Shown: positions 50,096-52,656 of the stretch, piece by piece
How positions within the stretch are numbered: position 1 is the first letter of the stretch
How the letters are laid out: the number at the start of each line of letters is the position of its first letter
Source: Claveliimonas monacensis
GTDB taxonomy: Bacteria > Bacillota > Clostridia > Lachnospirales > Lachnospiraceae
Assembly (NCBI RefSeq): GCF_014982975.1
Contig: NZ_JADCKL010000002.1
Span: 1-64,000, forward strand
Length of the DNA: 64,000 bases
Reading direction: 5' to 3'
Program-made: the position numbers and the translations under genes
Notes under the pieces: model-generated
Seen by the model: the letters and a program-made list of their open reading frames with translations, nothing else
Database searches by the model: none
Told to the model about the DNA's origin: nothing

Positions 50096-50986
50096 TTAAT
50101 ATGGAATTCTAAAATAATCCAAATACGCTTTATATCGATCCTGTGCAGTCAGGCATGTATCTGTCAGATAGCCTTTTTCATTGTTCCATTCTTTCAATCC
50201 TCGATAATAGAATATTTTCATGCTATCTTCGATAATAAATGGGACAATATTATATTTCAGACATTCCTTGAACATAATCAGCCTGCCCACACGACCGTTA
50301 CCGTCCTGAAACGGATGAATTCGCTCAAACTTTACGTGGAAGTCCAGAATATCTTCAAATGTCTTTTCTTCTTTTGCGTTATAAGCTGTCAGCAATGCTT
50401 TCATCTTACCGGCAACTTCTTCGGGTAGAACAGTATCCATCCCCCCTACTTCATTAGGCAATTTCTTATAATCCCCCACTGCAAACCAGTCTTTTCTGGA
50501 ATCGCTGGTTCCGCTTTTCAAAGTCAGATGAAGCTCCTTAATAAACTTCTCAGTCAAAGCAGCTTTTGCATGATCAATGATCATATCAATGCATCGAAAA
50601 TGATTTGACGTTTCAATCACATCATCTACGTTGATAACTTCATTTTCCACGCCAATGGTATTGGTTTCAAAAATATATCTGGTCTGATCATGGGTCAGAC
50701 GACTTCCCTCAATATGGTTTGAGTTATACGTTAAATCAATTTGTGTTTTATGGTAAATACCGCCGGAATATTTACTTGCCTTTTGTTCCTGCAAGATATC
50801 CAGCAATGTGAGTGGTGGTTCTTTCTTTTTGTTGGAACGCTCTGGTTTTTCGGCATTCTCCGGAATATTCCAGGTCTTTCCGGTAAGAAAAGCCCCCTGC
50901 ACACGCCCATGAGCACAATAGTTTCTCACACTGCGCTCCGATATATTCCATTTTTTTGCTATTTCAGTAACCGAACGGTATCGCAT
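50096..50986 (-). CDS. Fic-family protein with N-terminal HTH
   Basis: 296 residues. Residues 1-45 form a small helix-turn-helix (TEIAKKWNISERSVRNYCAH) like MerR/excisionase proteins. An inhibitory helix motif S/T-x3-E-G/N is seen in NSNHIEGS (about 89-94), so the protein may block its own ATP site. The catalytic motif is HPFQDGNGRVGR (223-234), complete with His, Asp, Asn and Arg. It likely transfers AMP to proteins, and the target is unknown. Start 50986 follows GGAGG. It sits in an AT-rich patch with the AbiF gene. Confidence 0.92.
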   Translation of the reverse strand: MRYRSVTEIAKKWNISERSVRNYCAHGRVQGAFLTGKTWNIPENAEKPERSNKKKEPPLTLLDILQEQKASKYSGGIYHKTQIDLTYNSNHIEGSRLTHDQTRYIFETNTIGVENEVINVDDVIETSNHFRCIDMIIDHAKAALTEKFIKELHLTLKSGTSDSRKDWFAVGDYKKLPNEVGGMDTVLPEEVAGKMKALLTAYNAKEEKTFEDILDFHVKFERIHPFQDGNGRVGRLIMFKECLKYNIVPFIIEDSMKIFYYRGLKEWNNEKGYLTDTCLTAQDRYKAYLDYFRIPY

Positions 50987-51352
50987 CTGCTTTCCTCCGT
51001 TATCAATCAAATAAAATACTACCTGCATCTATATTATAGTATATCATATTATCGGCAATAATTCCATCTGCCTTCTGTATTTCGCAATATGTTTTTGCCG
51101 TTTCCGGAAGTTTCAATTATCAAAACATATCATGGCTTGTTTTGCCAGCGTCCTATTATTCACCAATTTTCGATTATTAAAAATCACGCACACTTCATTC
51201 GTTTTTGTGTTCATATTTTATTAAGGTTATAGTGAATAGCTCTAATAAAAGTGGCGAAGTGCTTATCGTAACACTTCGCCGAAAGCCTAATCGGTTTGAG
51301 CATAATATGCTTGATTAGGTCTGCTTTAATATTTTATGCGCTTTAACTGAAT
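50987..51352. other. AT-rich intergenic region between fic and abiF
   Basis: About 366 bases with no gene. A TATAAT -10 for fic lies near 51035-51040. Two perfect hairpins stand at 51253-51280 and 51286-51319. Confidence 0.6.
51253..51319 (-). other. Two-hairpin element just after abiF
   Basis: Minus strand: CCTAATC/GATTAGG with an inner AGCAT/ATGCT stem, then GGCGAAGTG/CACTTCGCC followed by ACTTTTATT. It starts 33 bases after the abiF stop. It may be a terminator or a structured RNA end. Confidence 0.55.
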
Positions 51353-52261
51353 TTAAACACTCAAATGTGATTTCCAATCTGTCGGCATATTCATTGCTGT
51401 AAAACTGAGCACACCACCATTATTCTGAAGCAGCTTATCCAATTCATTAACAAATAACATCCATTCTTCATCTGACGATCTCAGATATTTCATTGCCAGC
51501 AAAATCTGATATAACCCGTTATGTGCTGGTGCAGGTGTTACTTTATCAGCATTCAGAATTTCCGGTGTGGTATGTATTGTTCGATTATATATTCTAGAAT
51601 TATGAGCACACATATTTCTCAACACAGAAACAGCTTGTACCCATGAAGAAAACATTTTCTTTGATGGAGTCACCAAATTTCCTTTTTTAGAGGTATACTG
51701 ATAATTAGATGCCAAAATCGAATATGTACTGCCTGTCCCTGTTTTCAAATTTTTAATTATCTTTGATAATGTTCCAAAGGAAAGAACTTCCACAACTGCC
51801 CATACTGGCACCTCACCTTCATGATTATCAAAATTATGTTTGATGAACACATCGTTAGAACGTGCAATCTCTGATGCTATTGTGGACATATTCTGCCAGT
51901 ACATTTTTTTCTCTTTAAAAATTGATGAATCCTGTAAGATTAAAGGATCTCCATGTATCAGTAATGCTTCTACTAATCGGACTCTCAATGCTATTTCAAT
52001 TTTGGAAATCATTGAGAAAATCAGAGCCGATAATTCCTGATCAAATTGATACAATTTTAAAATATCTTCAAACTTTGTTCCCGGAAAATACTTCTTTGTA
52101 GCATTATCATATAAGTGGAACGAGTATCCACGCAAACGATAAAATCCAACTGATTTTAACGCCTTTTCTACGTCCTCACGAGAAGCAATTACCATTCCTG
52201 CATCAATATATGATTGTACCTGCTGTGCTATTGTTAATATTTGTTTTGGATATTGATACAT
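51353..52261 (-). CDS. AbiF/AbiD-like abortive infection protein (Abi_2, HEPN fold)
   Basis: 302 residues, all-helical. The N terminus MYQYPKQILTIAQQVQSYID and the phrase KSVGFYRLRGYSFHLYDN are typical of the Abi_2 family. The HEPN ribonuclease motif R-x4-6-H is RNMCAHNSRIYNR in the C-terminal half. The family gives abortive infection against phages, presumably by RNA cleavage. Start 52261 is the first family-like Met, four bases after GGGGTG. A structured RNA with its own promoter and terminator lies directly upstream. Nearby are Fic and a transposon remnant. Confidence 0.9.
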   Translation of the reverse strand: MYQYPKQILTIAQQVQSYIDAGMVIASREDVEKALKSVGFYRLRGYSFHLYDNATKKYFPGTKFEDILKLYQFDQELSALIFSMISKIEIALRVRLVEALLIHGDPLILQDSSIFKEKKMYWQNMSTIASEIARSNDVFIKHNFDNHEGEVPVWAVVEVLSFGTLSKIIKNLKTGTGSTYSILASNYQYTSKKGNLVTPSKKMFSSWVQAVSVLRNMCAHNSRIYNRTIHTTPEILNADKVTPAPAHNGLYQILLAMKYLRSSDEEWMLFVNELDKLLQNNGGVLSFTAMNMPTDWKSHLSV

Positions 52262-52277
52262 AAAACACCCCATAAAC

Positions 52278-52332
52278 AAAAAAGTCCCACCGGGTTGCGC
52301 ATGAAAAAATCAGAGGCGTGGTGGGTTCTGTT
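52278..52332 (-). ncRNA. AbiF-associated structured RNA
   Basis: On the minus strand: promoter, then CCCACCACGCCTCTGA, an unpaired T-run, GCGCAACCCGGTGGG and a T6 tail. The CCCACC/GGTGGG stem closes a loop of about 28 nt and ends as a terminator 17 bases before the abiF start. Abi_2 genes are known to be preceded by a conserved RNA of this kind; I match it from memory. Confidence 0.65.
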
Positions 52333-52338
52333 ACTATC

Positions 52339-52366
52339 AGTATACAACTTTTATTGCGGCTGTCAA
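52339..52366 (-). promoter_or_regulatory. Promoter of the AbiF RNA
   Basis: Minus strand: -35 TTGACA (52361-52366), 16-bp spacer, -10 TATACT (52339-52344), about 7 bases before the start of the structured RNA. Confidence 0.75.
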
Positions 52367-52414
52367 TATTCCTTTTCGAAAAAGAATACAAGCTCCCATT
52401 ATTTTTTGCAGTAC

Positions 52415-52508
52415 ATACCCCATATTTCCTAATACGTCGTTCTTCTTCCAGCAGATCCAAATCTGGAATGTAGTAGTCTCCAACCAGAACATAATCAATC
52501 TCATTTTC
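52415..52508 (-). pseudogene. TnpV remnant (transposon-encoded protein fragment)
   Basis: A frame running to 52640 carries NEIDYVLVGDYYIPDLDLLE followed by EERRIRKYG, the N terminus of the TnpV family from Tn4451-like transposons (typically IDYTLVGDYYIPDLKLPEE). The following residues do not match and the start is lost. It marks past mobile-element activity next to abiF. Confidence 0.6.
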
Positions 52509-52656
52509 TCTGATTCTATCCTTCCGCGGATTATCTCGGAATGCTATAGGCATCCAATTCTTTATTGAGCCCCTCCCGAAAATTTCAGTCAAAAACTGGC
52601 GGAAAATCACGGCTTCTGCACCGCCATTCCCCGCCGGCATATTTATTTACATGCAT

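Follow-up and report, generated by a model that had tools for sequence, protein, structure and literature searches.

The window analysed here comprises 64,000 nucleotides of Claveliimonas monacensis (positions 1 to 64,000 of contig NZ_JADCKL010000002.1) and contains, between positions 51,253 and 52,366, a gene of the AbiF family of HEPN proteins together with two hairpins of the abiF RNA family (Rfam RF03085), one on either side of the gene. The whole cassette, from promoter to terminator, is encoded on the minus strand and is arranged as follows (loci and genomes used for comparison carry the prefixes L and G).

52339 to 52366, minus strand: sigma-70-type promoter of the 5' RNA, TTGACA-16-TATACT, with both hexamers kept in close homologues.
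52286 to 52325, minus strand: hairpin of the 5' abiF RNA, CCCACC-A-CGC...GCG-CAACCC-GGTGGG (RF03085 match, own model R2, predicted fold).
52278 to 52283, minus strand: T-run ending the 5' RNA, read from the sequence.
51353 to 52261, minus strand: abiF, 302 amino acids, with the HEPN motif RNMCAH (Pfam Abi_2, PADLOC AbiD, PDB 8vz6).
51331 to 51336, minus strand: TAAAAT, a conserved -10-like box 11 nt before the stem of the 3' RNA.
51286 to 51319, minus strand: hairpin of the 3' abiF-family RNA, CCTAATC-A-AGC...GCT-CAAACC-GATTAGG (RF03085, model R1, covariation).
51253 to 51280, minus strand: intrinsic terminator behind the 3' RNA and abiF, GGCGAAGTGTTACGATAAGCACTTCGCC followed by ACTTTTATTA (terminator scan, fold, conservation).

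The encoded protein scored 166.7 bits against Pfam Abi_2 (PF07751), above the curated cut-off of 25.6, and 305.5 bits against the PADLOC AbiD model. Its membership was further confirmed by a fold test against the solved family member PDB 8vz6. The RNMCAH motif named in the original prediction, which had been made from this sequence, was located at residues 215-220, where R215 and H220 constitute the HEPN RxxxxH active site; both residues were invariant across 25 aligned proteins. Translation likely starts at the ATG at 52261 rather than the TTG at 52279 and ends with the stop at 51353, a Shine-Dalgarno-like GGGG being found at 52268-52271, shortly 5' of the ATG.

The promoter matches the consensus at 11 of 12 bases and ranks first among 10 promoter-like sites (at least 9 consensus matches) between 50000 and 52700, a region for which shuffled sequences average 9.7 such sites. 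The 5' RNA folds into two stems with a single A and a 6-nt bulge, with 99.5% of cells paired. It matched RF03085 at 52325-52285 with 33.2 bits (E 9.3e-4 in 1.5 kb, E 4.4e-4 over the 3.0-Mb genome), which is significant though below the gathering score of 37, and the default window scan omits it for that reason; its own covariance model R2, built including this sequence, gave 90.9 bits. The proposed series of promoter, short RNA and HEPN-motif Abi_2 gene was thus borne out by the hexamers, the RNA match and the protein score, and the suggested Infernal comparison with the Rfam model returned a significant, if sub-gathering, match rather than none. The GGTGGG closing the stem runs directly into ACTTTTTT, and the antitoxin-type hairpin itself looks like its own terminator or attenuator. 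The putative terminator between this RNA and abiF is a hairpin with a T-run (52278-52325) read from the sequence; the consensus terminator scan does not list it because its loop exceeds what the scan allows.

A second RNA with a terminator behind abiF was absent from the original prediction. It sits 33 nt past the abiF stop codon, ahead of the strong terminator, and was the sole further RF03085 match at E<=10 in the 3.0-Mb genome (150 of 1,113 first-look candidates scored). With its own covariance model R1, again built including the sequence in question, it scored 105 bits. The hairpin CCTAAYC-A-AGC...GCT-CAAAYC-GRTTAGG, with small departures allowed, was present in 26 of 27 close loci with a 3' flank and begins at base 37 counted from the first base of the stop codon (base 36 in L055). 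These counts leave out L008-L013 (which duplicate other loci), L057 (3' flank missing) and L063 (3' RNA half deleted). Across 30 sequences, 99.0% of 630 pair cells were standard for an architecture of two stems, a single A and a 6-nt bulge, and 17 both-side pair changes were observed compared with 5.6 in shuffles; at one pair of the stem, 15 sequences have C-G and 14 have U-A. Alignment A1 omits L043, whose 3' RNA is identical to that of the window, and includes the toxin-damaged loci L060, L061, L065 and L067 as well as the decayed L052. In 25 loci, mean pairwise identity was 0.88 for the TAAAAT box, 0.86 for the 3' RNA and 0.92 for the terminator (0.89 for the latter two together), compared with 0.50 at fourfold sites, 0.48 over the initial stretch of the spacer and 0.29 past the terminator (range 0.10-0.64).

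The two RNAs also find one another. A covariance model from 3' RNAs alone gave the 5' RNA as the second-best match in the window (21.7 bits, E 0.009), and the model from 5' RNAs gave the 3' RNA as its second-best (17.9 bits, E 0.14) and recovered 3' RNAs in 7 of 10 loci (L014, L122, L015, L007, L037, L005 and, weakly, L048). Both RNAs are present in the open-frame deeper relatives L014, L122 and L015 (58-65% identity to the window AbiF), where the 3' RNAs reach 42, 43.3 and 28.6 bits against RF03085, so that the downstream counterparts in L014 and L122 exceed the gathering score. The 20 two-RNA rows (19 and the decayed L052) form one clade with 100/100 support when 47 proteins are placed in a tree; the tree label "one" denotes that no 3' RNA was found and includes some rows without any detected RNA, and rows L031, L032, L033, L125 and L142 had no Rfam scan. 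Members of the clade belong to the Lachnospiraceae, Oscillospiraceae, Erysipelotrichaceae, Clostridiaceae, Anaerotignaceae and Anaerovoracaceae. Antisense control by the 3' RNA was considered and rejected, as its predicted duplexes with the 5' RNA or the abiF start were no better than shuffles (equally low energies in 77/200 and 89/200 shuffles, respectively).

An abiF gene with an upstream abiF RNA is a known kind of system. The closest description concerns RCd22 and AbiFCd of the Clostridioides difficile prophages phi027 and phiC2, where an Abi_2 HEPN toxin follows a SigA-type promoter and an abiF-motif RNA with a terminator; the RNA mostly stops before the gene, read-through gives co-transcription, and there is no second promoter before the gene (PMC12373285). 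RCd22 represses the gene and neutralises AbiFCd by direct RNA-protein binding and premature termination, and its stems matter, both motifs having been mutated together (PMC12373285). Together with work on PbAbiF, solved with the non-coding RNA AbiFr (PDB 8vz6; PMC12737573), this largely works out the mechanism in relatives, and the earlier statement that it is not settled is outdated. AbiFCd is ~29% identical to the window AbiF and PbAbiF 28-29%. In RCd22 both motifs lie in one upstream RNA and are followed by a separate terminator (PMC12373285), whereas in the window the gene stands between its two motifs, and the 5' motif itself enters the U-tract. The phiC2 upstream motifs scored 37.6 and 19.5 bits against RF03085, without a match downstream of abiF at E<=10; a motif scoring as low as 19.5 bits can therefore be part of a functional antitoxin. 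The accessible text on PbAbiF mentions no second RNA gene behind abiF (PMC12737573), and no downstream abiF RNA appeared in the literature searched, although doi 10.1093/nar/gkx699 or doi 10.1016/j.cell.2025.01.034 may mention one, or abiF RNAs of phages. Like RF03085, the window RNAs have a 6-bp outer stem, a single A, a 3-bp inner stem and a 6-nt 3' bulge; unlike it, both score below gathering and the clade has two subtypes with CAACCC and CAAACC bulges. In type III toxin-antitoxin systems of the ToxIN kind, an RNA antitoxin likewise precedes the toxin gene, and a terminator lies between them, for which the hairpin and T-run at 52278-52325 would be the candidate counterpart; as described, those systems have a tandem repeat array and a toxin of another family (PMC12373285). 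No tandem antitoxin repeat array was seen before abiF with RF03085, which detected one motif upstream and one downstream.

We consider it probable, at roughly 0.7 and judging from sequence, that the locus is an AbiF toxin/abiF RNA antitoxin module belonging to a clade in which two paralogous antitoxin-type RNAs flank the toxin gene. This extends the earlier impression of an RNA-controlled toxin, which the RF03085 match and the family membership of AbiF support, by a clade-wide second RNA behind the gene and by signs of stand-alone RNA life in bacteria and phages. The strong promoter would give a short RNA mostly ending at its own hairpin and U-tract, with abiF mRNA arising by read-through alone, as read from the sequence here and shown experimentally in the C. 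difficile relative. By homology, the hairpin would then bind the AbiF HEPN dimer and keep the RNase inactive, a binding step shown for RCd22/AbiFCd (PMC12373285) and reported for PbAbiF (PMC12737573). The 3' hairpin with its own terminator may act as a further RNA that binds AbiF, probably transcribed from a weak promoter of its own (the -10 box) and also present on every abiF mRNA end, such that toxin mRNA and spare antitoxin would be made together and an AbiF dimer could hold two different RNAs. An infection that halts transcription or destroys the RNAs would finally free the RNase and arrest the cell.

Several observations weigh against this interpretation. Both RNAs fall short of the RF03085 gathering score, the 3' RNA clearly so with 19.5 bits. 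L052, the sole exception among the 27 close loci, has a decayed 3' RNA and an open abiF frame, and L048 and L053, two of the 26, have one broken inner pair in theirs. No recognisable -35 consensus precedes the 3' RNA, the -10 box test is weak per locus (random 13-nt windows equal it in 0.4-24%), and L014 has merely a 4-of-6 box. The 5' model misses the 3' RNA in 3 of 10 loci (L051, L055 and L056). L016, with 57% identity and a gene broken after residue 172, has the 5' RNA only. Further, RF03085 at E<=5, which would still miss a 19.5-bit copy, found the downstream RNA in 0 of 26 distant loci and the upstream RNA in 12 of them (25 distinct genes, L028 and L138 being one gene); since these AbiFs lack a detected 3' RNA, it would be dispensable for AbiF control in general. 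A strict motif descriptor likewise gave zero downstream matches in distant AbiFs. This negative is weak because the descriptor overlooks genuine RNAs, namely those of L004 and L008-L010 (opposite orientation), of L048 and L053 (one inner-pair change) and, because of their GACCAC bulge, the 5' RNAs in the distant group. In addition, 13 downstream flanks of distant loci were read by eye, that of L029 being cut by a contig end.

The most serious competitor, which we hold to be possible yet clearly less probable than a second antitoxin, is that the 3' hairpin represents an AbiF-binding site in the 3' end of the mRNA, through which AbiF would regulate its own message by binding or cutting, with the AU-rich stretch as a processing site instead of a promoter. 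Read-through abiF mRNA would indeed carry the hairpin, given its position between the stop codon and the terminator, the missing -35 fits, and TAAAATATTAAAGCAGA, which is conserved, could plausibly be a site where single-stranded RNA is cleaved. Against this, the motif lies ~50 and ~110 nt from the stop in L122 and L015, yet a TATACT and a TATAAT box, respectively, stay at 13 and 12 nt before it, and the 3' RNA is retained in some toxin-free derivatives.

The original prediction also named a possible second defence gene and a transposon scar next to the module, for which two neighbouring features are relevant.

50096 to 51028, minus strand: gene with a Fic/DOC domain (Fic domain found), a neighbour that is not a conserved part of the cassette.
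52203 to 52640, minus strand: remnant open reading frame of 145 amino acids with weak TnpV similarity (E 0.012, below cut-off).

A phage-triggered control unit with Fic as the second defence gene of the same patch appears improbable. The Fic gene is adjacent, its domain was confirmed, it is AT-rich like abiF (G+C 39% and 34%, compared with 50.5% for the window) and PADLOC lists it as candidate PDC-S04, but a Fic-like HPFxxGNGR motif was restricted to 2 of 20 clade loci examined (L046 and L005), leaving a partnership unsupported. The transposon scar is plausible and weakly supported by the sub-threshold TnpV match; the frame overlaps the abiF promoter and the 5' RNA and is no part of the cassette.

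We regard it as very unlikely that the 3' RNA once led a second, tandem abiF and, after the loss of that gene, was kept by hitch-hiking. Neighbouring abi_2 copies are reported to be frequent (PMC12373285) and the two RNAs are homologous, but the 3' RNA is conserved well above fourfold sites with stem-preserving change, is followed by its own terminator and not by a ribosome site, and shares this arrangement with the whole clade.

Conservation drops ~20 nt before the -35 and right after the terminator, and the flanks differ between most genomes. Because of these sharp bounds and varying flanks, the abiF unit seems to travel as a cassette of ~1.2 kb. The cassette DNA had no plasmid match, and AbiF protein matches on plasmids and phages were all below 60% identity. 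As unlikely as a leftover leader is the notion that the hairpins work as DNA, marking the ends of a mobile element for a transposase, as suggested by the sharp bounds, the varying flanks and internal-deletion derivatives that keep both ends. Conservation extends past both hairpins to the -35 and the terminator, deeper relatives keep the 3' motif in front of unrelated hairpins (L122, L015 and L014, the last without a clear T-run), and in a relative the 5' hairpin has been demonstrated to be an RNA (PMC12373285). As for the flanks themselves, genome G002 of the same genus has two copies: the 3' flank of the window cassette (51060-51250) is shared with one of them, L005, and the 5' flank resembles the second, L007, a pattern that suggests that cassettes have recombined. 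In L007, L037 and L058 the cassette is preceded by a palindrome, CTGTTACAC...GTGTAACAG, whose outer arms differ but are self-complementary; it is possibly another mobile hairpin, and one outer half-arm seems to be left at 52407-52418 of the window.

We further looked for RNAs without a toxin gene. In 397 family genomes, the 3' model gave 14 strong places (at least 76.9 bits), of which 9 adjoin full-length abiF and the other 5 a remnant or nothing. In G242 (L108) there are the promoter, the 5' RNA and 13 codons followed by the 3' RNA, while G013 (L104) has the 5' RNA, 34 C-terminal codons and the 3' RNA. RF03085 gave 39 matches in the same genomes, 30 with a locus and 9 left unclassified without one; the 30 comprise 17 by a full-length AbiF frame, 3 by a remnant and 10 by neither (among the 17, L075 is cut by a contig end and the match in L070 is the 3' RNA). 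Loss of the toxin with retention of the RNA fits a toxin-antitoxin pair; the retained RNA may shield against incoming AbiF, or the loss may be plain decay. In L108, L104, L067, L061, L109 and L099, abiF is partly or nearly wholly lost and one or both RNAs are kept. L093 contains two tandem abiF-type hairpins (~1440-1550) without an AbiF gene, following a replication-initiator-like gene, named by eye, of a probable mobile element.

Solitary copies were also found in phages of unrelated groups and in uncultured phages. Two core patterns matched 5 and 34 IMG/VR contigs. In 31 of these 39 the outer stem is perfect over 6 bp or more, which the patterns do not demand and for which shuffled sequence gave 1 match in 3.4 million strand-bases; the other 8 have no 6-bp outer stem. 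Of the 31 copies, 21 were compared with Rfam, which placed 13 above the gathering score (3 of 4 and 10 of 17 in two batches), namely L148, L149, L151, L160, L162, L167, L171, L173, L174, L177, L180, L181 and L184. Below it were L147, L150, L152, L153, L157, L164 and L170, and L163 had no RF03085 match at E<=1. Five of 11 named-phage regions exceeded the gathering score: Mycobacterium phages Thibault (54.9 bits), LittleE (49.9) and Bromden (40.5), Salicola phage CGphi29 (50.1) and the T7-like Aeromonas phage PT2 (44.4), the RNA of Bromden lying at L270 1202-1238 and those of the other four at L263 2505-2541, L265 2504-2540, L261 2502-2538 and L271 1203-1238. Rhizobium phage Pasto (L262, 30.3) and L266 (34.2) stayed under it, and Bacillus phage phiNIT1 (L260), Caulobacter phage RW (L264), Erwinia phage EarlPhillipIV (L267) and cyanophage AS-1 (L268) had no match at E<=1. 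No Abi_2 gene was found in the 18 whole records with an above-cut-off RNA, of which the 13 IMG/VR records may be fragments; among all 50 records searched, with an upheld RNA or not, one had such a gene (the contig of L176). A third pattern matched 75 contigs and gave 27 matches with a 5-bp outer stem, which had no Rfam check and are partly chance-like, and a second phage query yielded nothing convincing. When the Thibault RNA with its flanks was used as query, LittleE and the Bromden group aligned over 41-43 nt only, i.e. the RNA itself.

A tRNA gene on the same strand is only 5-8 nt away in the case of nine of the 31 IMG/VR copies (L152 and L183 have an RNA in common). Rfam was run on eight of these and upheld three (L149, L151 and L181) but not L147, L150, L152, L153 and L163. 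The Bromden RNA occupies the gap between tRNA-Gly (end 1194) and tRNA-Lys (start 1243). One abiF small RNA in cyanophage S-CREM1 and three phage members in Rfam have been mentioned before, the accessible text giving no anti-AbiF reading (PMC9964418). The simplest reading of the solitary phage RNAs is that they would act as decoys against AbiF, given that abiF RNA neutralises AbiF in the C. difficile system and that phage PhiTE escapes ToxIN by a pseudo-ToxI RNA (PMC5449768). The latter is a precedent for a phage RNA mimicking the RNA antitoxin of a toxin, but concerns another toxin family and a region expanded in escape mutants, whereas the phage abiF RNAs are standing genes. The wider proposal that abiF RNA is a stand-alone AbiF inhibitor, existing as a free-standing 3' antitoxin, as copies outliving the toxin in bacteria and as phage decoys partly hidden in tRNA arrays, appears to us slightly short of an even chance.

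Should the solitary RNAs of phages inhibit AbiF, they would account for part of the unannotated sequence that lies between phage genes and tRNA genes, phages escaping AbiF could be better predicted and an RNA-only form of counter-defence would be added. AbiD/F proteins have been proposed as the stock from which Cas13 arose (PMC12165695, PMC12737573), which raises the question of how their RNA turned into a guide. Two differently evolving AbiF RNAs within one clade also allow one copy to be tested against the other. ROOL RNAs (269.9 and 231.3 bits) occur in L148 (8330-8912) and L153 (8371-9064), close to the tRNA genes that the abiF-type hairpins of these viral contigs also have nearby, and a skipping-rope RNA (RF02924, 46.8 bits, above cut-off) adjoins tRNA genes at 3498-3568 of L260 from Bacillus phage phiNIT1.
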